Source of the DNA: Halalkalibacter oceani
Lineage (GTDB): Bacteria; Bacillota; Bacilli; Bacillales; Bacillaceae_D
Direction: 5' to 3'
NCBI RefSeq assembly: GCF_023715605.1
Contig: NZ_JAMBOL010000004.1
Coordinates: forward strand, 1 to 64,000
DNA length: 64,000 nucleotides
Part shown: piece after piece, positions 15,290 to 34,675 of the stretch
How positions within the stretch are numbered: the stretch's first letter is position 1
How the letters are laid out: each line of letters starts with the position of its first letter
Position numbers and translations under genes: made by a program
The notes under the pieces: model-generated
The model's database searches: none
What the model was told of the DNA's origin: nothing
Seen by the model: the letters and a program-made list of their open reading frames with translations, nothing else

Positions 15290-16171
15290 TCACACGCTCC
15301 GAAACACATCGGTCATAAACTCCTGCATCAACGGACTGATCGGACGGTCATGCCGGTAGATCACTGAGATCGACCGGTCGTGAATGAAGTTTGGTAACGG
15401 CCGGACGGCAAGCTTGTTTTGTTTTACTTCTTCCTCCACTGCTCGCTCCGATAAAATCGTCGCCCCCGTACCGAGAATGACCATCTGCTTGATCGCCTCA
15501 ATACTCGTTAATTCCATTTGAATATGTAAGTCAAGCTTCTCGCGCTCCGCCCATTTATCAATGATTTGGCGCGTGGAACCGGACTGGTGAATATAAATCG
15601 GGACTTGTTCGATATCTTCGAGCGTTATCTGCTCTTTCTCCGCTAAAGGATGCTCGGGGGAATGAACGAAGACGAGACGATCCGGGACAATCGCTTTACA
15701 TAGCAGCAATGAATGCTGGAGAGGTTGAATCGAGACGATGCCGAAATCGACCTGCTTTGCTTCGACCATCTTGATGATCGTAGGGGCTGAATGAACATGG
15801 AGCGTAATTTGGACGTTCGGCCGCTTCACATGGAACTGACTGCAAATCGGCGGTAACAGATAGCTTGCCGGAATCGTACTCGCCCCGATTTGCAGCTCGC
15901 CTCTTTTATACGATTGATAATCCTTCATCACCCGCTCGGCTTCCGATACGAGCAGAAGAATTTTCTCCGCATACTGGTAAAGCATCGAACCAGCCGAGGT
16001 TAAGACGATTTCTTCCCCCTTTTGTTCATATAAGATCACCCCTAAAGACTCCCGCAGCTTTTTCAAGTGGAAAGAGACGGTTGGCTGCTTTAATTTCATC
16101 GCGCGCGCGACTTTTGTGACATTTTTCGATTGGCAAAACCGATAATAAATATCGAGCTGCTGCAAGTTCAT
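15290..16171 (-). CDS. LysR-family transcriptional regulator
   Basis: Regulator of 293 residues. N-terminal winged helix (residues 1-60: FCQSKNVTKVARAMKLKQPTVSFHLKKL landmarks FCQSKNVTKVA and QPTVSFHLKKL) and a two-lobed effector-binding domain (~88-290) beginning ELQIGASTIPASYLLPP. It is transcribed divergently from the FbpABC-like importer operon at 16330, the standard arrangement for a LysR regulator and its target, so control of that operon is likely. Start: ATG at 16171 following a GGGGGAGAGAGGG binding site. Effector unknown. Confidence 0.9.
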   Translation of the reverse strand: MNLQQLDIYYRFCQSKNVTKVARAMKLKQPTVSFHLKKLRESLGVILYEQKGEEIVLTSAGSMLYQYAEKILLLVSEAERVMKDYQSYKRGELQIGASTIPASYLLPPICSQFHVKRPNVQITLHVHSAPTIIKMVEAKQVDFGIVSIQPLQHSLLLCKAIVPDRLVFVHSPEHPLAEKEQITLEDIEQVPIYIHQSGSTRQIIDKWAEREKLDLHIQMELTSIEAIKQMVILGTGATILSERAVEEEVKQNKLAVRPLPNFIHDRSISVIYRHDRPISPLMQEFMTDVFRSV

Positions 16172-16329
16172 TGTAAACCCTCTCTCCCCCTTATAGATTA
16201 ATTCTATCGTATCATGAGTAATTCATTGAAATTATTAATTATACGTTAAAAATTTATTAATACTCTATTAATATTTGACCGTTATCGTAGTCAGTAAGAA
16301 AGATAGTTTACAAGAGAGGAGAGCTGTGA
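16172..16329. promoter_or_regulatory. Divergent LysR/importer promoter region
   Basis: The 158-bp gap between divergent genes is very AT-rich and carries direct/inverted ATTAAT units (ATTAATAC then ATTAATAT, around 16255-16275), of the T-N11-A style used by LysR proteins. No Fur-type or Pho-box pattern was found. The exact operator and start points cannot be fixed by eye. Confidence 0.4.
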
Positions 16330-17424
16330 TTGAAAATTGAATTGCGCGCCATTCAAAAATCGTTCGGTTCCCTGGAGGCGTTAAAGCCCTTTTCCCTGAC
16401 GATCCCTTCTGGCACATTTGTCAGCCTGTTAGGACCTTCGGGCTGTGGGAAAACGACCTTGCTTCGGATTATTGCCGGGCTGGAAGAAGCGGATAGCGGA
16501 ACGATCAAAATGAACGACCAGATCATCTATTCGAACGAAAAGAATATTCACCTCCCTCCGCAAAAGCGCGGAATCGGGATGGTCTTTCAGGATTTTGCCT
16601 TATGGCCGCATATGACCGTCTTTGAAAATGTCGCCTACAGTCTAAAAGCAACCGGAAAGAAAAAAGGACTGCGCGAAAAAGTCGATCAAGCCCTGGAAAA
16701 TGTCCAGCTTGGCGACTATCGGGAGCGCTATCCCCACCAGCTGTCCGGCGGGCAGCAGCAACGCGTGGCGATTGCCCGGGCGATCGCCAATGATCCGGCT
16801 GTCATTTTAATGGACGAGCCATTAAGCGCCTTAGATGCCACGTTGCGGGATGAGATGAGAATTTTATTGCAATCGCTTGTCAAACGGCTGAACATGACCG
16901 CGATTTACGTTACCCATGATCAGAATGAAGCGATGTCGATGTCGGACTATGTCGTTGTGATGAATGCGGGCACATTGCTGCAGGAAGGAACGCCTGAGGA
17001 CATTTACCGTTATCCGCAGACGAAGGAAGTCGCCGCGTTTATTGGGAAAGGGACAATTTGGGACGGGCATCTGCAGACACAGGGAGACGAAACCTATCTC
17101 AAGGTCGAAGCGGACTTGTGCTTTCCCTTAACGAACAACACGGCGAAGATCATTCATAATGAGCCATGCACGATTGTCGTCAGGCCGGAGCATGTCCGTC
17201 TGTCACAGCTAATGTTTAACGGCGCACAGACCGGCGTGATCGAATCTGTCAGCTTTTTAGGAGAACGCTATGAAGTTACGTTTCGTGTCGGTCAGAAGGA
17301 AAAGCGCCTATTTGCCTATTCCTACGAACGCTTTACACCCGGGCAGCAAATTTATTTTACGATTCTCGCTGACTCGATTCATTTTATTCAACCATTAGGA
17401 GGGATTACCAATGAAACAGCTTAA
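16330..17424 (+). CDS. ABC importer ATP-binding protein (FbpC/PotA type)
   Basis: ATPase of 364 residues energising the importer encoded by the next two genes. Motifs: Walker A GPSGCGKTT, Q-loop VFQDFALWPHM, signature LSGGQQQR, Walker B ILMDEPLSALDA and H-loop VTHDQNEA. A C-terminal TOBE-like domain (~240-355) has IVVRPEHVRLS. Closest in style to Fe3+ (FbpC) and spermidine or phosphonate importers. Start: TTG at 16330, 9 nt after the AGAGGAGAG binding site. Its 3' end overlaps the binding-protein gene by 14 bp, indicating tight operon coupling. Confidence 0.88.
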   Translation: MKIELRAIQKSFGSLEALKPFSLTIPSGTFVSLLGPSGCGKTTLLRIIAGLEEADSGTIKMNDQIIYSNEKNIHLPPQKRGIGMVFQDFALWPHMTVFENVAYSLKATGKKKGLREKVDQALENVQLGDYRERYPHQLSGGQQQRVAIARAIANDPAVILMDEPLSALDATLRDEMRILLQSLVKRLNMTAIYVTHDQNEAMSMSDYVVVMNAGTLLQEGTPEDIYRYPQTKEVAAFIGKGTIWDGHLQTQGDETYLKVEADLCFPLTNNTAKIIHNEPCTIVVRPEHVRLSQLMFNGAQTGVIESVSFLGERYEVTFRVGQKEKRLFAYSYERFTPGQQIYFTILADSIHFIQPLGGITNETA

Positions 17425-18487
17425 AGGAATTCTGATTTTAACAATTGTTATGTTTGTTCTAACAGCTTGTGCGCAAACCGGACAGGAAGTACAGTCCAAT
17501 CAACCAGAGCAGGAAAATGAAGCATCCGCACCGGAGGACAATCACGATGCCAGTCCCGCAGCCGAAGCAAATGGCGGTGATGGCACGTTGACCATTTACA
17601 CCGCCGGGCCGGCAGGACTCGCTGAACAATTGGCAGATGTGTTTTCAGAAGAAACCGGAATTGAAGTGGATCTGTTTCAAGGAACAACCGGTGATATCCT
17701 TGGCCGCCTTGAAGCCGAGGAAAGCAACCCGATCACTGATGTCGTTGTGTTGGCCTCCCTGCCGCCGGCAGTTGAATATAAGGAAAGAGGGTTGACACTC
17801 GCCTATGAATCACCACATGCCGCCTCCCTCCATGACGGCTGGTACGATGATGAGTTTCATTATTACGGCTTCAGCGCTTCGGCTTTAGGATTAAGCTATA
17901 ACACGAATGTAGTCACTGAACCGCCGACAGACTGGTCCGACCTGACTGCGGCTGAATATAGCGGTCAGCTCGCGATTCCAGATCCGACACAATCGGGTAC
18001 AGCACGTGACTTTATCGCCGCCTTTATTAACCAGGAAGGGGAAGCCGGCTGGGAGCTGCTTGAGCAATTAAAGGAAAACGGCCTGCAAATGGAAGGGGCC
18101 AATAACCCGGCTCTCCAAACGGTCATTTCAGGAGCGAATTCTGTTGTCATGGCCGGAGTTGACTATATGGTGTACAGCAATAAAGCAAATGGCGAGCCTG
18201 TTGATATTGTCTTCCCGAAAAGTGGCACGATGATTACACCGCGTCCCGCTTTCATTTTAGAAAGCTCGCAAAATGTGGAGGCTGCGAAGCAATACATTGA
18301 CTTTATTTTATCGGAAGCCGGTCAGGAAATTATCGCGGAAGCGTATTTAATTCCAGGACGAGCGGATATTGAAGCGGCTGACATCGCCGTCGGCATTGAA
18401 GACATTCCGACGCTTGAGTATGACTGGACCTATCTTGAAGAGCATACGCAGGAAATTTTAGAGCGCTTCATGGAGCTGATCCGATAA
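17411..18487 (+). CDS. Substrate-binding lipoprotein (FbpA/PhnS type)
   Basis: Lipoprotein of 358 residues with the lipobox MFVLTACAQ (lipid Cys at about 20) and an acidic, Pro/Ala-rich linker. The solute-binding domain starts LTIYTAGPAGLAEQLADVF and has the hinge-type motifs typical of ferric-iron, thiamin or phosphonate binding proteins (YGFSASALGLSYNTN, FPKSGTMITPRPAF). A Tyr pair for direct Fe3+ binding, as in FbpA, is not evident, so iron is not established as the ligand. Operon: ATPase upstream (overlapping), permease downstream (3-bp gap). Confidence 0.85.
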   Translation: MKQLKGILILTIVMFVLTACAQTGQEVQSNQPEQENEASAPEDNHDASPAAEANGGDGTLTIYTAGPAGLAEQLADVFSEETGIEVDLFQGTTGDILGRLEAEESNPITDVVVLASLPPAVEYKERGLTLAYESPHAASLHDGWYDDEFHYYGFSASALGLSYNTNVVTEPPTDWSDLTAAEYSGQLAIPDPTQSGTARDFIAAFINQEGEAGWELLEQLKENGLQMEGANNPALQTVISGANSVVMAGVDYMVYSNKANGEPVDIVFPKSGTMITPRPAFILESSQNVEAAKQYIDFILSEAGQEIIAEAYLIPGRADIEAADIAVGIEDIPTLEYDWTYLEEHTQEILERFMELIR

Positions 18488-18490
18488 CGA

Positions 18491-20155
18491 ATGAACAGAA
18501 AACCTAGCTTACAGTCACTTAACAGCAGTATTGGATTGCTTCTGTTAATCGTCCTCGTCATGATGCCGCTTTTGTTTGTCTTCATGCGTGGTGTTATGCC
18601 TGATGGGACGTTCGAGGGACTGGCGCCGTTTCGCCTCTTAGCCGAGGAACGGTACTGGTCGATCTTTCTCAATTCCATTTTACTCGGGCTTGGAGTTGTC
18701 ATCGGGGCGTCACTATTGGCGGCGCCCCTTGCCTTCTTCATGGCGCGGACTGAAATGAAGAAGCAGCGCTGGATTGATGTCGTGCTAATCATTCCGTTTA
18801 TGACACCGCCATACATTGGTGCAATGGGCTGGATATTATCGATGCAGCCAAATGGGTATGCCGAGCAGCTGCTTCCATTCCTGGCAGCTGTCACTCCTTA
18901 TTTTTTCTCGTATTTTGGCATGGTGCTCGTGATGAGTCTTCATCTCTTCCCTTTTATTTATTTAATTATGAGAAACAATCTTGAAAATATTGGCGGACGG
19001 CTGGAAGAAGCGGGAATCGTACACGGCGGCTCTTTTTTTAATCGAATACGACGGATTATTGTTCCGCTTTTTTTATCCGGCTACAGTATGGGAGCCCTGC
19101 TCGTCTTTGTTAAAACGATTGGTGAATTCGGCACTCCTGTAACACTCGGCAACCGGATCGGTTATTATGTGCTGACATCGGAAATTCACCGCTATACGTC
19201 GATCTGGCCGCTTGACTTCGGAACAGCGGCGATTTTATCAACGATGCTGTTATCCGTCAGCATGCTGATCTGGTTCGTTCAGCAATGGCTTGTCAGCCGG
19301 CGTCATGATCAGGTTGTCACCGGAAAAGGACAGACCGAGGCAATCACCTATTTAGGAAAAAAGCGCATTTTTGCCTGGCTTTACTTAGCTGCTGTCCTGC
19401 TTCTGTCGATTGGTGTCCCTTATTTTGCCGTAGCATCAACAGCGCTGCTGGACATTCAGGGAAATGGACTCAGCTTTACGAATTTGACGATTCGCCATTT
19501 CGTCGACCTCTTTACCGGAAGCGGACGCCAAGCGCTGTGGAACAGTGTCTGGCTGGCGGCGCTCGCGGCAACGATCAGCGCGAGCATCGGCATTTGGGTC
19601 GCGCTTCTCATTATGAAAAAGAAGCAGGGAATCAAGGAAAAAACGATGGATTTTCTCTCGCTTGCTCCGAATACAGTACCAGGAATTGTCGTCGTTGTCG
19701 GTCTGATTTTATTTTGGAATGCCTATTGGAATCCGGCGCCGATATATAATACGTGGATGATGCTCGTCTTAACATACGTCATCCTGTACTTGCCTTTTAC
19801 CGTGCAAAACATTAAAGCCGTCTACGGACAGCTTGGTAATTCTCTCTTTCAGGCAGCGAAAATGAGCGGTGCTTCGTCCTTTTACATGATCAGGACCGTT
19901 TTGATTCCGTTGCTGATCCCGGGGATTTTGGCCGGCTGGATGATGACCTTTACGATCTCAATGAGGGAACTCGTCGGCTCGCTCATTCTCAGACCGCCGA
20001 ACATGCATACGTCAGCTACCTTTATTTATGCCCAGTTTGAACAAGGCACTCCTGCTCTTGGAATGGCGATGGCACTCGTGTCCGTAGGGCTGACGACAGT
20101 GATGCTGATGATGATTGAACAGATGAAAGCACGCTCGCAACATTACAAAATGTAA
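18491..20155 (+). CDS. Fused double-domain ABC permease (FbpB type)
   Basis: Membrane protein of 554 residues with two homologous permease halves, about 12 segments, as in FbpB-type ferric importers. Each half carries an EAA-type loop for ATPase docking: EEAGIVHGGSFFNRIRRIIVP (first, landmark EEAGIVHGG) and QAAKMSGASSFYMIRTVLIP (second). It completes an importer with the two preceding genes. Start ATG at 18491, three bases after the binding-protein stop. Substrate unassigned. Confidence 0.88.
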   Translation: MNRKPSLQSLNSSIGLLLLIVLVMMPLLFVFMRGVMPDGTFEGLAPFRLLAEERYWSIFLNSILLGLGVVIGASLLAAPLAFFMARTEMKKQRWIDVVLIIPFMTPPYIGAMGWILSMQPNGYAEQLLPFLAAVTPYFFSYFGMVLVMSLHLFPFIYLIMRNNLENIGGRLEEAGIVHGGSFFNRIRRIIVPLFLSGYSMGALLVFVKTIGEFGTPVTLGNRIGYYVLTSEIHRYTSIWPLDFGTAAILSTMLLSVSMLIWFVQQWLVSRRHDQVVTGKGQTEAITYLGKKRIFAWLYLAAVLLLSIGVPYFAVASTALLDIQGNGLSFTNLTIRHFVDLFTGSGRQALWNSVWLAALAATISASIGIWVALLIMKKKQGIKEKTMDFLSLAPNTVPGIVVVVGLILFWNAYWNPAPIYNTWMMLVLTYVILYLPFTVQNIKAVYGQLGNSLFQAAKMSGASSFYMIRTVLIPLLIPGILAGWMMTFTISMRELVGSLILRPPNMHTSATFIYAQFEQGTPALGMAMALVSVGLTTVMLMMIEQMKARSQHYKM

Positions 20156-20174
20156 CCGGCTAGGAGGATGTTGT

Positions 20175-21356
20175 TTGAACGTAACCTTTTTAGGTGGAGT
20201 AAATGAGTATGGCCGCTCCTGCTTCCACCTGCAAATGAACCAGATTTCGCTTCTTGTAGATTGCGGTATTATGAAAAATGAGACGCATGCTGCAAAGCGT
20301 TATCCGCTACTAACAAAAGAACTCGCTGAAAATTTGGACGCTGTCTTTCTCACCCATTCCCATGAGGATCATACAGCCGCCCTGCCCCACTTGTACCAGC
20401 TTGGCTTTAAAGGGAAGATTTATGCGACGGCGGCGACGATCAACGAGACAAGCCGCCTCTTCACCCCCGTTTGCACTAGAGTTGTAGCATTGGACTCCTT
20501 TCCAAGACGGAGGTGGCTTCCTTTTTCCGCTGATACGTCGCTTGAATTCCAGTATGGCTATAGTGGGCACACGCTTGGCTCGATTTGGTTCCTATTTCGG
20601 CTGAACGGCGCGCAAATTTTCTTTTCCGGTGATTATTCCACGGAATCGCCCGTCTTCATTGCCGAGGAGCCAATCATTGATCAGCCTGTTGACATCGCGA
20701 TCCTCGACGGGGCGTATGGGAAAGAAACCAAAGCGCAGCACACCTATTTAAACGAAATCTATCGGACCATTGACCAAGCTCTTCGTGAAAAGAAAAAAGT
20801 CCTTCTTCACGGACCTACATATGGAAAATTACAAGACTTGCTCATTTATTTTCAGCAATACAGGACCGATTTTTTGGAGCGGACCGTTATCAGTCCGGAA
20901 ATTGCAGCAAGTTTTGAGAGATATGCGCAGTACCCGTGCAACCTGAAAGAACCGACACTTTCCAATTTTGCAGCACTGTCAAAACAAGTCAGGACGACCC
21001 CGCTCCCGGCATGGCTGAACGATGATGAACATTCAATCGGCTTCGTTACCGAGCAGGAGCTGTTACACCAGTTCGCTGCACAAAGAAAGGAAAACCTGCT
21101 TATTTTATGCACTGGTCCTTTTTTACAGGACATTCTTTCGCTGACCGACGCAGTCGAGACAACCGATTACGTTCAAAAGCGCTACAAAGTCCATCCGGGC
21201 GCCGCTGAATTGCGCGCACAAGTTCAACAGCTGCGGCCACGGAAAATCATTTTCTCACATAGTCCAAATGAAAAAATTAAAGAGCTGCAAAAATGGTTCA
21301 GCGCGTTGGGCGAGGAAGTCGAGCTTGCATGCGTTGGTGAAAAATTACGACTATAA
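20175..21356 (+). CDS. MBL-fold hydrolase with probable beta-CASP region
   Basis: Metallo-beta-lactamase-fold protein of 393 residues. Metal-binding motifs are present in order: THSHEDH (~58-64), YSGHTLGS, FFSGDYS, and a late His in IIFSHSPNEK. The region from about 170 to 330 resembles the beta-CASP insert of RNase J/CPSF-type nucleases, so an RNA/DNA or small phosphoester substrate is possible. Start: TTG at 20175 after TAGGAGGATG. Only 19 bp separates it from the importer permease, so it belongs to that operon. A hydrolase in an importer operon suggests processing of the imported compound; this is inference. Confidence 0.75.
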   Translation: MNVTFLGGVNEYGRSCFHLQMNQISLLVDCGIMKNETHAAKRYPLLTKELAENLDAVFLTHSHEDHTAALPHLYQLGFKGKIYATAATINETSRLFTPVCTRVVALDSFPRRRWLPFSADTSLEFQYGYSGHTLGSIWFLFRLNGAQIFFSGDYSTESPVFIAEEPIIDQPVDIAILDGAYGKETKAQHTYLNEIYRTIDQALREKKKVLLHGPTYGKLQDLLIYFQQYRTDFLERTVISPEIAASFERYAQYPCNLKEPTLSNFAALSKQVRTTPLPAWLNDDEHSIGFVTEQELLHQFAAQRKENLLILCTGPFLQDILSLTDAVETTDYVQKRYKVHPGAAELRAQVQQLRPRKIIFSHSPNEKIKELQKWFSALGEEVELACVGEKLRL

Positions 21357-22593: not shown

Positions 22594-23595
22594 CTACATC
22601 GTGATTTCATATCTTTTTCGCTTCGAAAATCCGACGATGCTTGTGTACTGATTACGGCGTAGAAGCTCGATCGACTGTTCGATGTTGGTGCCTACATCAT
22701 CGGGGAAATGGGCATCTGATGAGAGCGTGAACGGAATGACGTGACGAGCTAATATTTGCAAATAAGCCGGGCTTGGGCACGCTTCCTTAACGGGATAGCG
22801 ATAAGCGAGGCCGGTATTGACCTCGGTTGCGACGTCGTGCCGCTGCAACGTCTCGGCAATCCGTGTGTAGTTTTCAAGCAGGAGCGCTTCCTCCGGCCGG
22901 TATGAAAATACTTTCAAGTTATCGAGGTGGGCGATTAAATCAAATAGCTGTGACGAGATCGCCTGGCAGACATAGTCGGTATGCGTGTGGTACAGCTCAG
23001 CTAAATCCTCCTGCTCGAAGCGACCTGCGGTGTATTTGTTATCGAAGCCCCAGCCGCGGACAAAATGAACAGAACCGATGACATAATCCCACGGCTTATT
23101 GGCAAGCAGTGCTTCAAGCTCCGCCTCGCCGTGCGGGAAAAAGTCGGCTTCAATTCCGAGAGACAACGTAACACCGTGGTTGTTCCACTTCTCCTGCTGT
23201 GATTGTATGAAATCAATAAATTGGTTCATCGAGGGGATCGTTGCCACCCGCTCGAGCCAACTCATTTGGAGTTTTCCAAGTTCATCATTTGCCAAATGCA
23301 TATGCGCTTCAAAATAGCGGCGGCATTCTTGAAAGCGGTATAAATGTTCGACAAGCCCGACCTCTTTTAATCCGAGCTGGATGGCCCGTTCCAGATAAAG
23401 GTCCAGCCATGCTTCTGAGTAACAGCCTTCCTCAACGCGGTTATGGAGCCGCTTCGTCAGCTGCTCGATTTGAGCGAGGGAATTGCGTACTTGCGCATCT
23501 TTTTCAGAAAAGAAAGCTAATGCTTTTGCCGTCCGTGCCAGCCAATTAACCGAATAAGGCCCTTCTTCTAAGTGAACATGATAGTCTACGCTCAA
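22594..23595 (-). CDS. PHP-family phosphoesterase (histidinol-phosphatase-like)
   Basis: Protein of 333 residues with the PHP metal motifs: DYHVHLEE, GLVEHLYR, LGIEADF, IGSVHFVRGW, IAHLDNLKVF and SSDAHFPDD. The family hydrolyses small phosphate mono- or cyclic esters in the cytoplasm using three metals. It is larger than HisK histidinol phosphatase and there is no his operon around it. It is the last gene of the seven-gene Pho-box operon (13 bp after the DeoR stop), so release of phosphate from an imported organophosphate is the likely role. Start TTG at 23595 with AGGAAG upstream. Confidence 0.82.
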   Translation of the reverse strand: MSVDYHVHLEEGPYSVNWLARTAKALAFFSEKDAQVRNSLAQIEQLTKRLHNRVEEGCYSEAWLDLYLERAIQLGLKEVGLVEHLYRFQECRRYFEAHMHLANDELGKLQMSWLERVATIPSMNQFIDFIQSQQEKWNNHGVTLSLGIEADFFPHGEAELEALLANKPWDYVIGSVHFVRGWGFDNKYTAGRFEQEDLAELYHTHTDYVCQAISSQLFDLIAHLDNLKVFSYRPEEALLLENYTRIAETLQRHDVATEVNTGLAYRYPVKEACPSPAYLQILARHVIPFTLSSDAHFPDDVGTNIEQSIELLRRNQYTSIVGFSKRKRYEITM

Positions 23596-23608
23596 AGTAA
23601 CACTTCCT

Positions 23609-24394
23609 TTAGTCTGCTATAATCCAATTAATATTTTGAAACAGCTTGCTTTCCTTCCAGGAGCCAGGCATATCCGTCGTGCAGACGATTGCATTGACGT
23701 CTTCGATCGGGCATATTTTGCAAAAGGCATCCACACCTAATTTCGAATGATCGGAAAGGACGATAATCTCTTTTGCCGCTTCAATCATCGCCTTCGACAT
23801 CATCGCCTCATTCATGTCATAGTCCGTAATGCCATTTTTCAGCGAGACACCGCCGACAGAGATAAAGGCCTGATCGACAATAAAGTTGCCGAGTACCATT
23901 TCAGTCAAGCGCCCCGTCAGCGAATATTGAGCCGGATTGATTTGTCCGCCTAGCAAAATAACGTCGCCGCTAAAGTCTTTACGATTTAATGCTTCTACAA
24001 GAATCGTAGCGACCGGCAATGAATTTGTGAGGATCGTAATATTTTCTTTGTTTTTAATCGCGCTGGCCAGCTCGAGGACGGTCGTGCCGACATCAATCGC
24101 GATTGTCGTGCCATCCTGAATGAGATCGGCTGCTTTTTTGCCGATTCGCCTCTTTTCTTTTTCCATAATGCTCTTGCGGTTTGGCAGTGAAGGCTCTCCG
24201 TGTGGGTATCTCGTCAGCACCGCCCCGCCGTATACCCGCTTGACGACACCTTCTTTTTCGAGCACATCAAGATCGCGCCGAATCGTCTCCGTTGTGACGG
24301 CAAAATGCTCTGAAAGGGTTGTCACCTGTACTTTGCCGTTCGATTTCAGCTGGTCCAAAATATACTGCTTCCGCTCTTCCGGGAACCACTCCAT
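23609..24394 (-). CDS. DeoR/GlpR-family transcriptional regulator
   Basis: Regulator of 261 residues. N-terminal winged helix EERKQYILDQLKSNGKV with TTETIRRDLDVLEKEG recognition helix, and a C-terminal sugar-phosphate-sensing DeoRC domain with AIDVGTTVLELA, LGGQINPAQYSLTG and LSDHSKLGVDAF. DeoR proteins normally sense phosphorylated intermediates, fitting an organophosphate operon. Start: ATG at 24394 right after GGAGGAGG. It lies within the operon, 17 bp after the ATPase gene, so autoregulation is likely. Confidence 0.9.
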   Translation of the reverse strand: MEWFPEERKQYILDQLKSNGKVQVTTLSEHFAVTTETIRRDLDVLEKEGVVKRVYGGAVLTRYPHGEPSLPNRKSIMEKEKRRIGKKAADLIQDGTTIAIDVGTTVLELASAIKNKENITILTNSLPVATILVEALNRKDFSGDVILLGGQINPAQYSLTGRLTEMVLGNFIVDQAFISVGGVSLKNGITDYDMNEAMMSKAMIEAAKEIIVLSDHSKLGVDAFCKICPIEDVNAIVCTTDMPGSWKESKLFQNINWIIAD

Positions 24395-24411
24395 TTTTCC
24401 TCCTCCTTCCG

Positions 24412-25425
24412 CTATAATGGAATGCATGCCTCCTTTGGGAGCATGAGATCGACAAGATCACCTTCCTGGTAGCTCCCGCCCCCTCTGTTCACCTCTTCAA
24501 CGACGAGATGTTTGACGCTCGTTTTAACTTTGTAGCTAAGCATGCTTCCATTTAATGTTTTCATCTCGATTTTTCCTTTGATCACATAATAATCGGAAGA
24601 GCTTCCTTCTTGATCGCTCCCAGTAAGCAGAATGCTTTCCGGCCGGACGGCCATATCCTGAAATGGGGCTTTGAGCTCGTGACCGCTGCACTGCTCCCAT
24701 TCTGATTTTGAAAAGAGATTATAGGCGCCGATGAAGCCTGCGACGAACTTGTTTTGCGGCTTCGTATAAATCTCTTCCGGCGTCCCGGCCTGCTCAACTT
24801 TTCCTTGATTCATTACATAAATCGTGTCACTCAAAATCATCGCTTCCTTCTGGTCATGCGTCACAAAAATCGTCGTGATCTCCAGCTCCTTCTGGATGCG
24901 CTTCACTTCCTCCTGCAATGACTTCCGTATTTTTGCATCAAGGGCGCTGAAAGGTTCATCAAGCAATAGCACCGTCGGCTTCATAATTAGCGAACGGGCA
25001 AAGGCGACCCGTTGCTGTTGACCGCCGGACAGTTCATGAGGGTAGCGGGCTTCCAGTCCTTCGAGTCCCATCATTTCAATCATTTTTCTCACTTCGGCTT
25101 CAATATTGCGCTGTTTCTTCAGCTTCGGCCCATAGGAAATATTTTGGTGAACGGTGAGGTTCGGGAATAACGCATATGATTGAAAAACCATCCCGATTCC
25201 TCTTTGTCTCGATGGAAGATTCGTAATATCGCGGCCATTGACGACAATTTGTCCTTCATCAATTTGCGTGATTCCGGCCAAAGAGCGGAGCAAGGTGCTT
25301 TTCCCGCACCCGCTTTGCCCAAGCAGCGTCACAAACTCGCCTTTTTCAATCGAAAAAGTAATTTGATCCAGGACTGTTTTCTCTTCATAGCGTTTCATTA
25401 ACGAATTCACACTTACATAGCTCAT
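24412..25425 (-). CDS. ABC importer ATP-binding protein (PotA/UgpC/PhnT type)
   Basis: ATPase of 337 residues: Walker A GQSGCGKST, Q-loop VFQSYALFPNL, signature LSGGQQQR, Walker B LLLDEPFSALDA, H-loop VTHDQKEA, then a C-terminal TOBE-like regulatory domain (VRPESILLTG). Start ATG at 25425 overlaps the preceding permease stop by 4 bp (ATGA). It powers the importer formed by the two permeases and binding protein of this operon. Confidence 0.9.
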   Translation of the reverse strand: MSYVSVNSLMKRYEEKTVLDQITFSIEKGEFVTLLGQSGCGKSTLLRSLAGITQIDEGQIVVNGRDITNLPSRQRGIGMVFQSYALFPNLTVHQNISYGPKLKKQRNIEAEVRKMIEMMGLEGLEARYPHELSGGQQQRVAFARSLIMKPTVLLLDEPFSALDAKIRKSLQEEVKRIQKELEITTIFVTHDQKEAMILSDTIYVMNQGKVEQAGTPEEIYTKPQNKFVAGFIGAYNLFSKSEWEQCSGHELKAPFQDMAVRPESILLTGSDQEGSSSDYYVIKGKIEMKTLNGSMLSYKVKTSVKHLVVEEVNRGGGSYQEGDLVDLMLPKEACIPL

Positions 25426-26285
25426 GTTATTTCTCCTTCAGCCACAGTTTTTTTCGCCGAATGACCGAGTCCTTTGCGCAATCGGCCGCGTTCCCGCTTT
25501 GCCTGCTTCTCTCCTTTTGAGGCCTGGAAATTTAACAGCAGACCGGTAATGATCATAATCATCGTGTAATACGTGATGACGATCGCGCTTGTTAAATGGC
25601 CGTTTTTGCTCATTTGCTGATATAAATAAATTTGCAATGTTTCAAACCGTCCGCCGACAAGCAGGTTGGCCAGGGCGAATTCGCCGAACAGCATCGAAAT
25701 CGAAAGCAGCGTCGCTGACAAAATCCCTTTTGAAATATTCGGCAAGACGACCGATGTGATCGCCTGCCATTTTGTCGCCCCAAGGATTTCAGCAGCCTGG
25801 ATCAGCTCTATTGCATCAATTGTGTAAATGCTGTTGCGGATGCTTTGATAGACAAATGGCATAATGATCACGGCATAAACCCCAAATAAAATCCACGGCG
25901 TGCCGACAATTTGAATCGAGGAAGACGAATAGAGATTTAACAGACCGATGGCGGCGGCGACAGCCGGTACCCCGTAAGGCAGCATCGAGATCACCTTCAG
26001 CACATTGGCCTGTTTCGGAAAGTAAAGCAGCATCACAAACATCGCCAAAAGCATCATGATCACACAAAGCGTGACGGAAACGGTAATGACGAGGGCCGAT
26101 CTGGCTAAAGCGGCGAGAAAGCGCTCATCCGAAAAGAGCTGAATGTACCACGAAAACGTCCACGCTTGCGGCAGGATCGTCGTACTCCAGTTTTCTGCAA
26201 ATGAATAAAGCAACGTTCCGGCGAGCGGCAATAAAAGATAAAATGCTAACGCAACAACGATCAAGCCATGTTTATTCCATTTCAT
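25422..26285 (-). CDS. ABC importer permease, second subunit
   Basis: Membrane permease of 287 residues with six predicted segments and the EAA loop QAAEILGATKWQAITSVVLP for ATPase docking. The C-terminus is basic and cytoplasmic. It overlaps both neighbours by 4 bp (26282-26285 and 25422-25425), so translation of the importer subunits is coupled. Similar to PotC/PhnV-type permeases. Confidence 0.88.
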   Translation of the reverse strand: MKWNKHGLIVVALAFYLLLPLAGTLLYSFAENWSTTILPQAWTFSWYIQLFSDERFLAALARSALVITVSVTLCVIMMLLAMFVMLLYFPKQANVLKVISMLPYGVPAVAAAIGLLNLYSSSSIQIVGTPWILFGVYAVIIMPFVYQSIRNSIYTIDAIELIQAAEILGATKWQAITSVVLPNISKGILSATLLSISMLFGEFALANLLVGGRFETLQIYLYQQMSKNGHLTSAIVITYYTMIMIITGLLLNFQASKGEKQAKRERGRLRKGLGHSAKKTVAEGEIT

Positions 26286-27124
26286 TTCAAGTCCCGCCTT
26301 ACTTTTCGCATAATCTGTTCATTGAGCCATAACGCTCCGAGCATAATCGCCGCCAACACGACCCCAAAGGCGCTTGCCAAATTCGGATTCAAGAACACAT
26401 CCCCGGCGATGAGCGAGCCGATTTGCAGCGGAATTAAATTGTACGTCGACCCGACGAGCGCGTAAGCAGTCGCATACGCACCAAGAGAATTGGCCAGTAA
26501 AATGGTAAACGTGCCAAATATCCCCGGAATCAGCACGGGTAGCCCGATGCGGACCCAATAGTGAAAAGACGTCCCGCCCAGTAGATTTGAAGCGTAGCTC
26601 CACTCATCGTTCAGCCCTTGATACGTAGGAAGCAGCAGCATAATCGCAAATGGCACCTGGAAATAGACATAGACCGTTACGAGACCGACCCAGGAATACA
26701 GGTTAAAGCCATCGAGGACAGAGAAGCCGAGCTGGGAAAACAAAAGGGTAAACAACCCGTTGTTGCCGAGCAGAACAATAAAGGAAAACGCCAAAGGCAG
26801 CCCTTCAAAATAGGACGTCATATTGGTGATCATGACCATGTATCGATTTCCGCGCCCGGCCAGCCGGCTAATCGAATATCCTCCAATCGCCGCAATCACA
26901 ATCGCAATTGACGCGGACAGAAAGGAGATCGTTAAACTGTTTTTAATCGCCTGTACATAAAACGGGTCTTGAAAGATAATCGCAAATTGTTCGAAGCCGA
27001 ATGCTCCGTCGTTTGTCTGCACGCTTTGCACAACCATATTGACAAGCGGCGCCAGTAAAAACCCGCAAACGAATAAACCGAGCGGTAAAAGACCTGCATA
27101 AGCAAGCAGCTTTGAGTGTTTCAC
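26282..27124 (-). CDS. ABC importer permease, first subunit
   Basis: Membrane permease of about 280 residues, six segments, PotB/PhnU-like. The EAA-type loop is YASNLLGGTSFHYWVRIGLP. Start: GTG at 27124, 9 nt after AAGGAGG; the frame extends to 27169 but would add a non-hydrophobic lead without a binding site. It follows the phosphodiesterase-like gene by 28 bp and overlaps the next permease by 4 bp. Confidence 0.87.
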   Translation of the reverse strand: MKHSKLLAYAGLLPLGLFVCGFLLAPLVNMVVQSVQTNDGAFGFEQFAIIFQDPFYVQAIKNSLTISFLSASIAIVIAAIGGYSISRLAGRGNRYMVMITNMTSYFEGLPLAFSFIVLLGNNGLFTLLFSQLGFSVLDGFNLYSWVGLVTVYVYFQVPFAIMLLLPTYQGLNDEWSYASNLLGGTSFHYWVRIGLPVLIPGIFGTFTILLANSLGAYATAYALVGSTYNLIPLQIGSLIAGDVFLNPNLASAFGVVLAAIMLGALWLNEQIMRKVRRDLK

Positions 27125-27152
27125 CGACTGCTCCCTCCTTCCCTGCCTGCAC

Positions 27153-27986
27153 TCACCGCCCGCTGACAAGCGCGGCTGCCTGTTGCGGGAGGGGAATCAT
27201 CTTTTCTGATGTTGAAATGTTCAATAGCTTGCACATAAGCGGCGCAAACGCCAGCTGGGGCAAGGTGATATCATGAATGCCTGTTTCAACCTGATCACTT
27301 ATTACATAAAGCGGGACAAGCCGCTCTTCGTCTGTCGTTCCGCCATGCAGACGCCATTCCGACATACCGTGATCCGACGTAACGACGATCTGATAGCCTT
27401 CCTTTTTCCATAGCGGAATGAGCTCGGATAAAAGGTTGTCCACCGTCAAAATTTTCTGGCGATATTCCGTTGAATTCGGTCCGAATTTATGCCCGTCATC
27501 ATCGACATTCATGGAATGAATATAGAGGAAGTCAGGATGGACCTCGCGCCGTAATGACTCCCCATCCAGAAACAGGTGGCTGTCCGGATAATGATCCTCC
27601 CAGTAGAAGCGACCATGCTGAATCGGCTTCTCCTGATGATGCTGGTCGCGATCCTCCAAAAAGTGAAAAGGAGCGCGATTATACAGTTCACTCACCCAGT
27701 AATATGACGCCGTCGCATTGACGAGTCCGTGCTCTTTCGTTAAATGAAACAGGCTTTTTTGCTGCGACAAACGGACAGCGCCATTGCTCGCGATTCCGTT
27801 GTATGAGCTTGGTGTACCTGTCAGCAGCACTTCATAGAGTGGTCGCGATAAGCTTGGCAGCTCCGATTTTACCCGGCAGCGGGCTGCCTGCCCGCTCGCC
27901 GCCAGATGTTCCATATAGCCTAAATTTTCAATCGCAGAGTCATAGCGCATGCCATCGACCACAACGACAATCAATTTAGTTGACAT
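27153..27986 (-). CDS. Alkaline phosphatase-superfamily phosphodiesterase-like enzyme
   Basis: Protein of 277 residues of the nucleotide pyrophosphatase/phosphodiesterase branch of the alkaline phosphatase superfamily. Metal sites: VVVVDGMRYD (N-terminal Asp), ELPSLSRPLYEVLLTG (Ser/Thr nucleophile region), SMNVDDDGHKFG and TSDHGMSEW with a later HGG. No signal peptide, so it is cytoplasmic and would act on an imported substrate. Start: ATG at 27986, 9 nt after GAGG; it overlaps the binding-protein stop by 11 bp. Phosphonoacetate hydrolase (PhnA) is a relative, so phosphonate cleavage is an alternative to diester cleavage. Confidence 0.78.
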   Translation of the reverse strand: MSTKLIVVVVDGMRYDSAIENLGYMEHLAASGQAARCRVKSELPSLSRPLYEVLLTGTPSSYNGIASNGAVRLSQQKSLFHLTKEHGLVNATASYYWVSELYNRAPFHFLEDRDQHHQEKPIQHGRFYWEDHYPDSHLFLDGESLRREVHPDFLYIHSMNVDDDGHKFGPNSTEYRQKILTVDNLLSELIPLWKKEGYQIVVTSDHGMSEWRLHGGTTDEERLVPLYVISDQVETGIHDITLPQLAFAPLMCKLLNISTSEKMIPLPQQAAALVSGR

Positions 27987-29085
27987 GAATGAGAACCTCG
28001 CTCTGCCATAGTCTAGGCAGTTCCTTAGCCGTCTCTTCCCAAGCATTATGGTCATTGACCGGAACCGCGTTTTGATATTGTTCGTGTGGAATCATCATTT
28101 CTGCCACCTCTGCCGGCAGCTCGACGGAATCACGGATTGGACGAGCATACCCTTTGGCAAGATTGATTTGCCCCGCGTCACTTAAAATGTACTCGCGCGT
28201 CAGCATCGCCGCATGCGGCTGCTTGGCATATTTGTTAATAATCGTCGCATAGCCGCTGACAATCGATCCTTCTTCCGGAATCGTCACTTCATAACGGTCA
28301 CGGTCGACTTCATCAGCATAGCCGAGCGAGTTGAAATCCCACATAATCCCAACCTGCATTTCGCCTGTTTCCATTCCTGAGACGCTCAGATTATTAGCTG
28401 TGCTTAGACGGCCCTGCTTCGCCAGTTCGGCAAAAAACTCCAATCCCGGCTGAAGATTCGTTTCATCACCACCGTGCGCCACGGCAGCGGCCAACACCGC
28501 CATTTGGCTTTGTGTTCCCGTTTGAACATCGCCAACCGATACCATATAATCTCCTTCCAGCAAATCCTGCCATGAACGAGGAACTTCATTTACCTGGTTT
28601 TTATCGGCAATAAACGAAATTGTTCCTTGGTAGCCGACAACCCAATGACCTTCGTCATCCTTTGCCCAATCAGGAATTTCATCCCAGTAGGACGTTTTAT
28701 ATGGAAGGGTAATGTCTTTTTCCTTGGCGATCGGGCCAAATGAAATCCCGACATCCCCGATATCGGCTGTCGCATTTTCGCCCTCCGATTCCATTTTGGC
28801 AATTTCCTCGGCACTCGACATATCCGTATCAGAATGCTCAAGTCCGTAAAGCTCCGTTAGATCATCCCATGTATCCTTCCAGTTCGCCCATGAATCAGGC
28901 ATGCCGACACTGTATACAGCGCCTTCCTCCTGCGCCTTTTCCTCAATTTCTTCTAACGTAAGAGTGCTCGGGTCAAGGGCACCCCCATCATTACCTGCAT
29001 CGTTAGAACCGCACGCAGCCAAGCTTAAAAGCCCTGCTCCCAAAACCAAACCGCGAATCATATTTCGTTTGCGTAGAAAAGCCAT
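27976..29085 (-). CDS. Importer substrate-binding lipoprotein of the Pho-box operon
   Basis: Lipoprotein of 369 residues with signal peptide ending LLSLAACGS and an acidic Gly/Asn linker. The binding domain is of the PotD/PhnS-like cluster (GMPDSWANWKDTWDDL, YKTSYWDEIPDW, GVGD-type lobes). Start: ATG at 29085, 9 nt after AGGAGG; the frame continues to 29178 through an A/C-rich leader that is untranslated. First gene of the operon, directly under the Pho box. Substrate not identified; an organophosphate or phosphonate is inferred. Confidence 0.85.
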   Translation of the reverse strand: MAFLRKRNMIRGLVLGAGLLSLAACGSNDAGNDGGALDPSTLTLEEIEEKAQEEGAVYSVGMPDSWANWKDTWDDLTELYGLEHSDTDMSSAEEIAKMESEGENATADIGDVGISFGPIAKEKDITLPYKTSYWDEIPDWAKDDEGHWVVGYQGTISFIADKNQVNEVPRSWQDLLEGDYMVSVGDVQTGTQSQMAVLAAAVAHGGDETNLQPGLEFFAELAKQGRLSTANNLSVSGMETGEMQVGIMWDFNSLGYADEVDRDRYEVTIPEEGSIVSGYATIINKYAKQPHAAMLTREYILSDAGQINLAKGYARPIRDSVELPAEVAEMMIPHEQYQNAVPVNDHNAWEETAKELPRLWQSEVLIHVN

Positions 29086-29151
29086 ATTCAACTTCCTCCT
29101 CTTTGCTTTCATTTTGTTTTTGTTTGTATTTTGTTGTTTTTGCTTGTCTTC

Positions 29152-29215
29152 ACTATACGAGTTTAGTATTAATAACATTTAAAGCTGATGTTAAATAGTG
29201 TGAACGTTTTGTAAA
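29152..29215 (-). promoter_or_regulatory. Candidate PhoP (Pho box) promoter
   Basis: Reading the minus strand, hexamers TTTACA (29215), TTCACA (29204), TTAACA (29194) and TTTAAA (29183) recur at 11, 10 and 11 bp, as in the TT(A/T/C)ACA repeats bound by PhoP in Bacillus. A -10-like TATAGT follows at 29157-29152, 20 bp after the last repeat. The leader from there to the binding-protein gene is CAA-rich and unstructured. Confidence 0.65.
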
Positions 29216-29221
29216 GATGAC

Positions 29222-29253
29222 AAAAAAGGATCTTCTACAAAGACCCTTTTTTT
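29222..29253 (-). terminator. Terminator after the amidase gene
   Basis: AAAAAGG(A)TCTT pairs with AAGACCCTTTTT; the minus-strand transcript ends CCUUUUUUG, 17 bases after the amidase stop. Confidence 0.7.
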
Positions 29254-32210: not shown

Positions 32211-33989
32211 CTAGATTTTTTTATTTAAAGTAAAGAAAAACAACACGCCATCTTCGGTATTTGCAGCGCCATACTCCACCCCATGCAGCTCCAGTATATT
32301 TTTTGAAATAGCAAGACCTAATCCGGTACCGTCCTTTGAGTGATGCTGATCTATATGGCCCCGATAGAAGCGGTCCCAGATTTTTTGCAAATGCTCCTGC
32401 TCGATATGAGCTCCTTTGTTTTCAACACAAACTTTTACGCGAGTATCTTCTTCAATCGTCGATAAGATGATTTTATGATCTACCGGCGTGTAGCGAATGG
32501 CATTCGTCATAAAGTTCGTCACCACTTGTTCGATCCGATCCTGATTAGCAACGACCTGGCTGCCGGAAAGCTGTTTGACCAGCTCAAGCTGCTTGTTGGC
32601 AATCTCTAAAGCCAATTTCTCGCATATATGCTCAATAAGCTGATCGATCGAAAAGACATCCATTTTCATTTTATACGTCCCGGACTCGAATTTTGCCAGT
32701 TCAAGCATCTCCACGATCAGCCGGTCCATTTTATCGACCTCTTTTATCATCGCCTGGAAATAATAGTCCTTTTTATTATTGGCTATTCCATCCTCCAAAA
32801 TGGAGAGACAGCTTTTCAAAACGCTCAAAGGCGTCTTCAATTCATGAGAAACCCCGGAAATAAATTCCTTTCGTGTCCTTTCCAGCTGTTTTTCTTTCTC
32901 AATATCCTCTTGCAATTGCTGAATGTAGGAATGGAGCGTAGTAGAAAGTGTATTAATGTTATGAGATAAAGCTCCGATTTCATCCTTTGAGGCAACCGGG
33001 ATTTTTTCGGAAAAATCCAACCTGGCCATCCGGCCTGCCGTCTCATTTATTTGCAGCAAAGGTTTTGCGATCTTTTTTGAATAGTAGAGGGAAACAAGAA
33101 TAATAAGCAGAAGGACAAAGATAAGTAAGTATGCGTAATAATCTTTTACCATTTGCACCGCTTCATCGACAGGCTGTAATGACGTCATCGCAAACAGATA
33201 AACTGTCTCTTCGGCCTCGTTCGTTACAGGACGGATGAAAATTTTATATTGAATACCATTTTCCTCATAGTCAAGCGTTTCAGCAGAACTGCTTTGATCA
33301 TCATTTATGATTAGGTTTGCTTGAAATTGCTTTATCCTTTCAATAAAAACACGATTCGTGTAAAGGGCTGAACCTGCTGCGCCAACTGGCAATTGTAATT
33401 CTTTAATTTCTCCCGACACATATAAGCTGTCCATCCGGGATGTCTCTACCTCGGCGTTTGGACCGTAAAGCCTATCTGACAAGTGCCGATTCTCCAGTAC
33501 TTTATTCGCATCTTTCACCGTTAAAATAGACGGGATGATGTCATGCCCTTCTATGAGTCCATCGATCAGAAGATGTTTTCCCGGTGCTAAATAAAACTTT
33601 TCCCGCTCAACTTCCTCCAACTCCATAAAGCTGTATAAGGGGATCGTGATGACTTGGTTGGAGAGCTGCTGATTTTGAGTAGCGTTCACCTGAAGGGTTA
33701 CAGAAAAATCGTCTGCGAATTTTATATTTCCGAGATGATCTAACGGTGTAATCCAGGTTTGATTGGCCTGATAGAACTCTTCCTGCAGCTTTTGAATCGT
33801 TGCTGGATCGCCCTCAGCATTTATAAAGTCGATCTCAAATGATTGCATACTCGCTTGAATCTCATTTACCTTTTGATTAGCATAAAATTGCTTAAAAAAG
33901 ATCGTCTGTCCGACAAAAATAACGAGTAAAATAAGCATGCATAATAAGGTCGTCAGGATAAATAACTTTGGGACAATTCCTACCTTCAT
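32211..33989 (-). CDS. Sensor histidine kinase with large extracellular domain
   Basis: Sensor kinase of 592 residues. TM1 (~8-30), extracellular region of about 240 residues, TM2 (~280-302), HAMP (SKKIAKPLLQINETAGRMA), HisKA with phospho-His in FISGVSHELKTPLSVL and HATPase with N box (VVTNFMTNAIRYTP) and G box (GTGLGLAISKNILELHG). Its ATG overlaps the regulator stop by 4 bp. It precedes the SGNH/acyltransferase pair on the same strand, suggesting control of cell-wall modification, though 160 bp and a hairpin lie between. Confidence 0.92.
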   Translation of the reverse strand: MKVGIVPKLFILTTLLCMLILLVIFVGQTIFFKQFYANQKVNEIQASMQSFEIDFINAEGDPATIQKLQEEFYQANQTWITPLDHLGNIKFADDFSVTLQVNATQNQQLSNQVITIPLYSFMELEEVEREKFYLAPGKHLLIDGLIEGHDIIPSILTVKDANKVLENRHLSDRLYGPNAEVETSRMDSLYVSGEIKELQLPVGAAGSALYTNRVFIERIKQFQANLIINDDQSSSAETLDYEENGIQYKIFIRPVTNEAEETVYLFAMTSLQPVDEAVQMVKDYYAYLLIFVLLLIILVSLYYSKKIAKPLLQINETAGRMARLDFSEKIPVASKDEIGALSHNINTLSTTLHSYIQQLQEDIEKEKQLERTRKEFISGVSHELKTPLSVLKSCLSILEDGIANNKKDYYFQAMIKEVDKMDRLIVEMLELAKFESGTYKMKMDVFSIDQLIEHICEKLALEIANKQLELVKQLSGSQVVANQDRIEQVVTNFMTNAIRYTPVDHKIILSTIEEDTRVKVCVENKGAHIEQEHLQKIWDRFYRGHIDQHHSKDGTGLGLAISKNILELHGVEYGAANTEDGVLFFFTLNKKI

Positions 33990-34675
33990 ACGTCACCCTC
34001 AAACTTATAACCAACTCGAATAACAGTCACTATAGCCTTTGCTCTATTTCCTAATTTATGACGTAAATTACGGATATGACTGTTGATAGTCCGGTCATCA
34101 CCGGCAAACTCATACCCCCAAATTTTTGTAATGAGCTGTTCTCTCGTGATAATCATTCCAGCATTACGCATTAAGTAGGCTAAAATTTCAAACTCTGTAT
34201 GAGTCAAATGGATAGTTTCTCCCTCTGCTGACACGGTCCGCGAAGCAAGGTCGAGACAAATTCCATTACCTGTTAATCTCTCTTCTTCCGCCAACGTACC
34301 TTTGGCAGAATTACGGCTTTCTAGTAGGCGTTTTACCCTCGCCAACAAAATCGGCGGACTATAAGGTTTTGTTACATAATCATCTGCCCCAAGCTCAAAG
34401 CCAAGTAGCGTATCGTCTTCATCAGCGCGGGCTGTCAGCATAATAACAGCTACATCGGAAGACGTTTTTCGGATCCGTCTGCAAACAGACCAGCCATCCA
34501 ACTTCGGCAGCATAATATCCAAAATGATTAAATCGACCGGGTGTTCTTCAAACATCACTAAAGCTTCGTTCCCATCTGCCGCTTCTATTACGTTGTATCC
34601 TTCATTCAGCAAATAGTCTTTTACGATTTCTCGTAAAATGTCTTCGTCTTCTACAATTAACACTGTTTTCGCCAT
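33986..34675 (-). CDS. OmpR/PhoB-family response regulator
   Basis: Regulator of 229 residues: receiver with IVEDED, phospho-Asp in LIILDIMLPKLDGW, Thr in MLTARAD and Lys in YVTKPYS; winged helix with HLTHTEFEILAYL and DRTINSHIRNLRHKLG. Translation is coupled to the following kinase. Start ATG at 34675 after GAGGGG. Divergent from the UxaA-family gene across a 380-bp gap. Confidence 0.93.
   Translation of the reverse strand: MAKTVLIVEDEDILREIVKDYLLNEGYNVIEAADGNEALVMFEEHPVDLIILDIMLPKLDGWSVCRRIRKTSSDVAVIMLTARADEDDTLLGFELGADDYVTKPYSPPILLARVKRLLESRNSAKGTLAEEERLTGNGICLDLASRTVSAEGETIHLTHTEFEILAYLMRNAGMIITREQLITKIWGYEFAGDDRTINSHIRNLRHKLGNRAKAIVTVIRVGYKFEGDV

Follow-up and report, generated by a model that had tools for sequence, protein, structure and literature searches.

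A seven-gene operon of Halalkalibacter oceani preceded by a Pho-box array is predicted to import and break down a small phosphodiester

Described organophosphate import systems and the H. oceani operon

The organic phosphorus compounds that starved bacteria import whole are poorly mapped. The UgpQ enzyme of Escherichia coli cleaves inside the cell. It forms part of Ugp (UgpBAEC plus UgpQ), which combines Pho-induced import of glycerophosphodiesters with a diesterase (PMC4415409). The seven genes described here lie in the window, that is, the whole stretch of 64,000 nucleotides analysed (positions 1 to 64,000 of contig NZ_JAMBOL010000004.1; Table 1). They resemble Ugp in joining predicted Pho-type import of a diester to a predicted diesterase. 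Pho-controlled organophosphate import is not new in itself, but the binding protein and the enzyme pair differ from those of Ugp. The window operon has an SBP_bac_6 binding protein, its diesterase belongs to PF01663 with no GDPD-family diesterase present, and its ATPase scores below the UgpC cut-off (296 vs 432).

The same binding-protein family, PF13343, contains the 2-aminoethylphosphonate transporters AepX and AepS, and the synthesis of AepX, AepS and PhnS is called phosphate-insensitive in the abstract of PMC8316502. The window operon shares with these transporters a PF13343 binding protein and a related ATPase and permeases. Unlike PhnSTUV and PhnS2/T2/U2, its components fall short of the family cut-offs (binding protein 45.1 vs 310, ATPase 367 vs 457.7, permeases 85.6 vs 358.7 and 77.5 vs 593.25), and it is accompanied by a diesterase and a PHP enzyme, not by PhnWX.

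The nearest named case is the cj0727-cj0732 operon of Campylobacter jejuni, a member of the phosphate regulon under PhosR control that includes a phosphodiesterase-type gene and ends in a HAD hydrolase gene. The closest solved chain to the window binding protein is 5t1p (E 1.9e-131), presumably Cj0727. The two operons have this binding protein and a phosphodiesterase-type gene in common; they differ in the last gene, which encodes a HAD hydrolase in C. jejuni and not a PHP protein. A 2020 paper lists cj0727-cj0732 without an assigned function (PMC7176700). No description of the operon's function was found in the literature outside subscription papers and preprints, and the available portions of PMC7793946, PMC6098018, PMC5082522, PMC4744853, PMC10132767 and PMC2527321 contain nothing on its function or induction. 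If the reading developed below is right, a function would be assigned to a widespread operon for which none was found in the literature, its versions in Campylobacter and on enterococcal plasmids would gain a testable substrate, and one diesterase would join the catabolism of membrane-lipid debris to that of phosphonates.

The initial annotation had described a seven-gene operon at 22594-29085 with overlapping or abutting genes, and this description holds. The overlaps are 11 nt between the binding-protein and diesterase genes (with the diesterase start at 27986), 17 nt between the diesterase and PermA, 4 nt for both PermA/PermB and PermB/ATPase, and 16 nt for ATPase/DeoR; DeoR and PHP are separated by 13 nt. 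The lipobox supports the assignment of the binding protein as a lipoprotein. The best NCBIfam match of PermA, TIGR03262, is the one far below its cut-off noted above, and its Pfam BPD_transp_1 score is 21.1 bits, below 26.4.

A second transporter cluster occupies 15290-21356 of the window and encodes a PhnT2-like ATPase, a PhnS-like binding protein and a PhnU2-like fused permease, all below the cut-offs. A gene for a metallo-beta-lactamase-fold enzyme carrying RMMBL comes next, and a LysR gene is divergent from the cluster. The interval separating the cluster from the LysR gene contains AT-rich TTAATA repeats in steps of 11 bases (16233-16273).

Table 1. Features of the operon and its upstream region, in window coordinates. 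SBP, solute-binding protein.
Feature	Position	Strand	Basis
Hexamer 1, TTTACA	29215-29210	-	sequence reading
Hexamer 2, TTCACA	29204-29199	-	sequence reading
Hexamer 3, TTAACA	29194-29189	-	sequence reading
Hexamer 4, TTTAAA	29183-29178	-	sequence reading
Hexamer 5, TTAATA (beyond the four of the initial annotation)	29172-29167	-	sequence reading
Whole Pho-box array, five hexamers, steps 11/10/11/11	29167..29215	-	consensus score, similar arrays in other Bacilli
-10-like TATAGT, exactly nine bases after the fifth hexamer (absent from the initial annotation)	29152..29157	-	sequence reading, spacing statistics
Ribosome-binding site AGGAGG before the binding-protein start	29095..29100	-	direct reading
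14-bp terminator-like hairpin behind the amidase gene that lies upstream, before the array	29222..29252	-	hairpin scan
Lipoprotein SBP, SBP_bac_6 (PF13343), 369 aa, lipobox LAAC	27976..29085	-	family search
NPP-type phosphodiesterase (PF01663), 277 aa from likely start 27986; open frame from 28055	27153..27986	-	family search, model
ABC permease A (PermA)	26282..27169	-	family search
ABC permease B (PermB)	25422..26285	-	family search
ABC ATPase, PhnT2-like, 367 bits, below cut-off 457.7	24412..25425	-	family search
DeoR-family regulator, HTH_DeoR + DeoRC	23609..24427	-	family search
PHP-family phosphatase, NF005235	22594..23595	-	family search, model

The Pho-box array and its conservation

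The four hexamers first read at steps of 11/10/11 bases were confirmed on the minus strand of 29152-29215 (TTTACA, TTCACA, TTAACA and TTTAAA) and agree with the consensus TT(A/C/T)ACA at 23 of 24 positions. Nothing else in the 64-kb window scores above 20 against the hexamer consensus on either strand, and when the 200 nt upstream were dinucleotide-shuffled 2000 times, a score of 23 was never reached. The terminator-like hairpin at 29252-29222 likely marks the upstream border of the operon; taken alone it is weak evidence, as it is one of five such hairpins in 8 kb and shuffles average 8.8.

Across the 4.47-Mb genome the pattern has limits. The exact three-hexamer pattern has two matches, the window site included, vs one for a reversed control, and with one mismatch allowed there are 13 vs 5, so that enrichment is weak. 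Because the reversed control pattern matches too, three hexamers alone are weak evidence; what counts is that the array is fourfold and conserved. In front of pstS stands an array of four hexamers that scores 21, and the pstC near it is above the TIGR02138 cut-off. Other matches are at plausible Pho genes: a Na/Pi cotransporter-PhoU gene has an upstream three-hexamer site with one mismatch and no four-hexamer array of at least 20, and a metallophosphoesterase gene has a match of score 20. Further matches lie before or near genes for a chemotaxis receptor, a Band 7 protein, a DUF1801 protein and an ABC_sub_bind protein, and before or near a gene of 228 aa that follows one for a D-Ala-D-Ala carboxypeptidase; such matches show how limited the pattern is. 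A candidate PhoR-like kinase is also encoded in this genome; it carries an sCache_like domain, a mark of PhoR. Its gene (L145, 399-2217; L numbers denote loci) is followed directly after the stop codon by a score-21 array, before the Band 7 gene. Near the operon, at 32211-34675 of the window, is a two-component pair that is PhoB-/WalK-like and scores under the curated cut-offs of the listed matches.

Arrays of this type are found before related operons. Upstream regions of 110 loci (L010-L119, including the window's own, L010) were compared, of which 96 were left after removal of near-duplicates, defined by a common 60-mer. A four-hexamer array of at least 19 is present in 39 of the 96 non-redundant regions (44 of 108 with near-duplicates). 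In the 39 strong arrays, agreement with TATAAT downstream of the final hexamer averages 3.54 of 6 positions at a distance of nine bases and at most 2.72 of 6 at every other distance from 0 to 24; the peak is unchanged when near-duplicates are kept (44 arrays). Eighty named loci, the best 80 of 517 relatives, were also scored with near-duplicates kept and kinship ignored, together with control regions free of genes of the system. On that footing, 13 of 18 loci from Bacilli outside the Paenibacillaceae reach 19, as do 4 of 14 remaining loci and 3 of 238 control regions (1 of 48 within the 18 Bacilli loci). Among Paenibacillus/Cohnella-type loci, a class in which operon layout placed L085 and L087, both named Bacillus sp., only 1 of 48 has such an array by this consensus. 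These counts indicate a real array that one part of the operon family conserves and that, judged by this consensus, another part lacks.

Four gamma-proteobacterial loci were scored for arrays of the PhoB type. Oceanospirillum L118 has a heptamer array with exact 11-base steps (four units, 19/28, equalled in 0 of 500 shuffles), and its best two-unit PhoB box is ordinary (equalled in 42 of 500). The array of Halomonas L202, also with exact 11-base steps, scores 20/28, by score alone. Those of Salinivibrio L116 (16/28, 12 of 500 shuffles) and the Pseudomonas aeruginosa plasmid locus L201 (17/28, by score alone) are weak, and no array of the hexamer (18.0) or PhoB-like heptamer type was found upstream of the Enterococcus faecium operon L200. 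The missing arrays of the Paenibacillus/Cohnella-type and E. faecium loci and the weak ones of L116 and L201, with the ordinary two-unit box of L118, count against the explanation preferred here. The conserved array, the fixed -10 spacing and the array before pstS favour the Pho-type control that had been proposed for the operon. An ABC operon for iron, polyamine or sugar whose hexamers stand in array by chance is a very improbable alternative: solved structures related to the binding protein do include iron-binding proteins, but the conservation and -10 spacing of the array, and two phosphoesterase genes inside the operon, argue against it.

Predicted enzymes and candidate ligands

Low phosphate would lead activated PhoP to bind the five-hexamer array and bring RNA polymerase to the -10 element nine bases downstream. 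By family membership, the lipoprotein would take the ligand, and the two permeases and the ATPase would bring it in. The NPP-type enzyme would convert a diester to a phosphomonoester and an alcohol, and the PHP enzyme would then free phosphate from the monoester, an order suggested by substitutions in relatives. The DeoR protein may respond to the monoester or to a sugar phosphate, fine-tuning expression. This general mechanism is considered probable. The fuller statement, in which a phosphate-starvation operon imports and intracellularly breaks down small phosphodiesters with an aminoethyl-like group as the leading head group, is favoured by a narrow margin over its being wrong. The head group itself is tentative; with it, glycerophosphoethanolamine or a close amino-alcohol diester would be converted through phosphoethanolamine to ethanolamine and phosphate.

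The diesterase is NPP-like. It scores 81.4 against PF01663 (Pfam gathering threshold 23), and its model (mean pLDDT 97.3) has Xac NPP, ENPP5 and ENPP6 as best structural matches. It resembles ENPP6, a choline-specific glycerophosphodiesterase according to the PDB entry, in its fold and in its PSLS-P motif, PSLSRP aligning over PSLSYP of ENPP6; it differs in length (277 vs ~392 residues), and identity in the structural alignment is 13-14%. No signal peptide was seen by inspection. In a residue alignment of 52 of the 72 distinct diesterase sequences, the window's included, D11, S47, D162, D205, H206 and H214 are present in all 52 and H166 in 50. These seven positions, placed by alignment, are presumably the two-metal ligands and the Ser/Thr nucleophile of the family, so that the catalytic residues appear to be kept. 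Three cousins (L196, L197 and L198) are 540-571 aa long, have an N-terminal hydrophobic stretch and are 31-32% identical.

Since nucleotide pyrophosphatases/phosphodiesterases are the top folds, the operon might instead salvage nucleotides or dinucleotides, the NPP-type enzyme yielding a nucleoside monophosphate from which the PHP enzyme takes off phosphate. This is improbable: no nucleoside-metabolism gene was found among the family-searched neighbours, a minority of the flanking ORFs, and AepX, of the same binding-protein family, binds 2-aminoethylphosphonate (PMC8316502).

The second enzyme belongs to NF005235 (PRK06740; 470.8 bits, above the cut-off of 442). It misses the HisJ cut-off (PRK08123, 44.6 vs 133) and exceeds those of the subfamily models NF005596 (204.9 vs 202) and TIGR01856 (103.6 vs 90.2); its model (mean pLDDT 90.6) matches histidinol-phosphate phosphatases. 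Some relatives have another enzyme in place of a window-type PHP. HAD-IB proteins are found in L116, L118 and the plasmid locus L201 (178, 191 and 201, all below the histidinol-phosphatase cut-off of 280), and for them as for the window PHP the best NCBIfam match is a histidinol-phosphatase-named family. HAD-IA proteins, nearest to phosphoglycolate phosphatase and below its cut-off, occur in L117 and L119. E. faecium L200 has a divergent gene of another PHP family, NF005597 (named hypothetical protein), and L177, on the same contig as L073, has a PF00245 alkaline phosphatase after the ATPase. Because some relatives swap the PHP for a HAD or another PHP protein, the logic is likely diesterase first, monoesterase second. 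An adjacent monoesterase is not universal, since 17 of the best 80 of 517 loci, L073 included, have the diesterase and lack DeoR, the window PHP and both HAD types, a count in which other phosphatase types are unscored and some loci end early. Import of an organophosphate and its hydrolysis in two cytoplasmic steps, as first proposed, agree with the gene content and with the substitutions in relatives.

A second, metabolite-level control of the operon is plausible. A GntR-UTRA gene stands divergent in the gamma-proteobacterial loci L116 and L118, and relatives of this gene are in L201 and L202; the L202 protein is nearest to PhnR and below its cut-off (247.5 vs 296.75). DeoR regulators are usually sensors of sugar phosphates, and for that reason a glycerol-phosphate product would fit better, which counts against the main reading.

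The head group is suggested by the contexts of two relatives, one locus each. In L178, on a contig of a Tepidanaerobacteraceae metagenome bin whose genome also holds L177/L073 on another contig, the order is SBP-PermA-PermB-ATP-diesterase-PhnX-PbfA-PhnW, and PhnX, PbfA and PhnW are all above the cut-off. Its diesterase is 50% identical to that of the window and keeps Y95, E100, Y102, R113, Y128, D131, Y133 and R222, whereas W97 is replaced by F; on conservation, read without coordinates, these eight kept residues are a guess at the pocket. In Labrenzia, a cousin 32-34% identical adjoins TmpA and TmpB, both above the cut-off, and differs at Y95, W97, E100, R113, D131 and R222; three plasmid records carry the same diesterase, and the neighbourhood is from one of them. 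TmpA and TmpB are enzymes for the trimethyl analogue (PMC10574752). An ester hydrolase in these two contexts would yield an aminoalkyl phosphonate, and the phosphate counterpart of that product is phosphoethanolamine or phosphocholine. The ethanolamine-type diester was inferred from these contexts together with the GDPD genes in related transporter operons (below), the AepX/AepS family, the histidinol-phosphatase-named best matches of the window PHP and the HAD-IB proteins, and the lack of a phosphonatase above the cut-off in the H. oceani genome (a search confined to families other than C-P lyase). Against it count the single-locus contexts, the residue differences of the Labrenzia cousin, the HAD-IB scores below the cut-offs, the HAD-IA and NF005597 assignments and the cousins without such neighbours: in Pararhizobium, two Shinella and two Phyllobacterium replicons, annotation shows no phosphonate-enzyme genes near the other alphaproteobacterial diesterases. 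In the rhizobial loci L206, L207 and L209 the cousin follows an ABC binding-protein gene of ~527 codons, and a divergent gene is annotated as a PLP-dependent aminotransferase.

The same two contexts, the binding-protein family common to AepX and PhnS, and the phosphonoacetate hydrolases 3szy and 1ei6 among the sequence relatives of the diesterase would also fit a phosphonate system, in which the enzyme splits phosphonate esters or, in the manner of PhnA, a C-P bond. This too is improbable. The genome's lack of a phosphonatase speaks against it, PHP or HAD monoesterases would have no work, and tblastn with PhnX, PbfA, PhnW, TmpA and TmpB gave a match in L178 only among 95 loci (a set with L203 outside it). 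The nucleophile position is serine in 52 of 52 diesterases, and that of PhnA is said to be likely threonine (PMC10574752). The initial annotation had left the ligand as an organophosphate or phosphonate; on this evidence a phosphodiester has become likelier and a phosphonate less so.

A different glycerophosphodiester handled by the same mechanism (glycerophosphocholine, -glycerol or -inositol), or a cut on the opposite side giving glycerol-3-phosphate sensed by a DeoR/GlpR-like protein, is possible though doubtful. In the related transporter operons L181 and L185, distant relatives by their binding proteins, the ATPase gene is followed by one for a GDPD, L188 encodes a glycerol-3-phosphate-oxidase-like DAO protein (242.3 vs a cut-off of 460), the window operon includes a DeoR regulator, and ENPP6 is among the top folds. 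The binding proteins of L181, L185 and L188 are only 33-42% identical, however, and these loci have no NPP-type diesterase. As to the opposite-side cut, the product in L178 and Labrenzia must retain the aminoethyl- or trimethylaminoethyl-phosphonate, which requires alcohol-side cleavage there. Xylose-isomerase-like TIM-barrel genes accompany binding-protein relatives (32-50% identical) in L180, L184, L186 and L188, with FGGY kinases and BtpA proteins in addition in L184 and L186.

Returning to the aminoethyl-type diester, a broader and more speculative reading, rather unlikely as a whole, is that the operon family is dedicated to salvage of aminoethyl phosphodiesters, namely glycerophosphoethanolamine and its phosphonate analogues, by a module coupled either to PHP/HAD or to PhnW/PbfA/PhnX. 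A diesterase cousin would then serve TmpA/TmpB on choline-type phosphonates, and the module, carried on enterococcal plasmids, would in several lineages be controlled by Pho.

Distribution and gene order

The gene set, for which no described equal had been known to the initial annotation, is not unique to this genome. Among the best 80 of 517 related loci, a search for the same order in other genomes, which had been proposed as a check, found it in 16, and 20 have the order SBP-PermA-PermB-ATP-DeoR-PDE-PHP. The same seven genes are present in 36 of these 80 loci by ORF list; by tblastn, diesterase, PHP and DeoR occur together in 37, the additional one being L041, where the PHP position is absent from the ORF list. 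The diesterase was found by tblastn in 72 of the 80 and DeoR in 56; a window-type PHP was not found in 43 and DeoR not in 24, counts that include some loci that end early. By this comparison the seven genes form a conserved operon.

The binding protein is found at E <= 1e-40 in 34 of 397 genomes within the order and 15 of 398 within the phylum, the H. oceani genome included in both, and within the genus in one of the 13 genomes examined, H. oceani itself. The neighbouring amidase has only 37-45% identical relatives in these 13 genomes. Among 60 relatives including H. oceani, the diesterase has a strong match in H. oceani only; the next is partial (E 5.4e-8). To judge from these comparisons, the operon segment is likely accessory or horizontally transferred. 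No match to the binding protein was found in phage records. Diesterase relatives at E <= 1e-20 are encoded in 198 of 72,556 plasmid records, 179 of the 198 from Enterococcus. The E. faecium plasmid locus L200, the one in which the arrangement was read, carries the transporter-diesterase module with the divergent PHP gene. The Enterococcus plasmid records with the diesterase are, among the matches listed, mostly from people.
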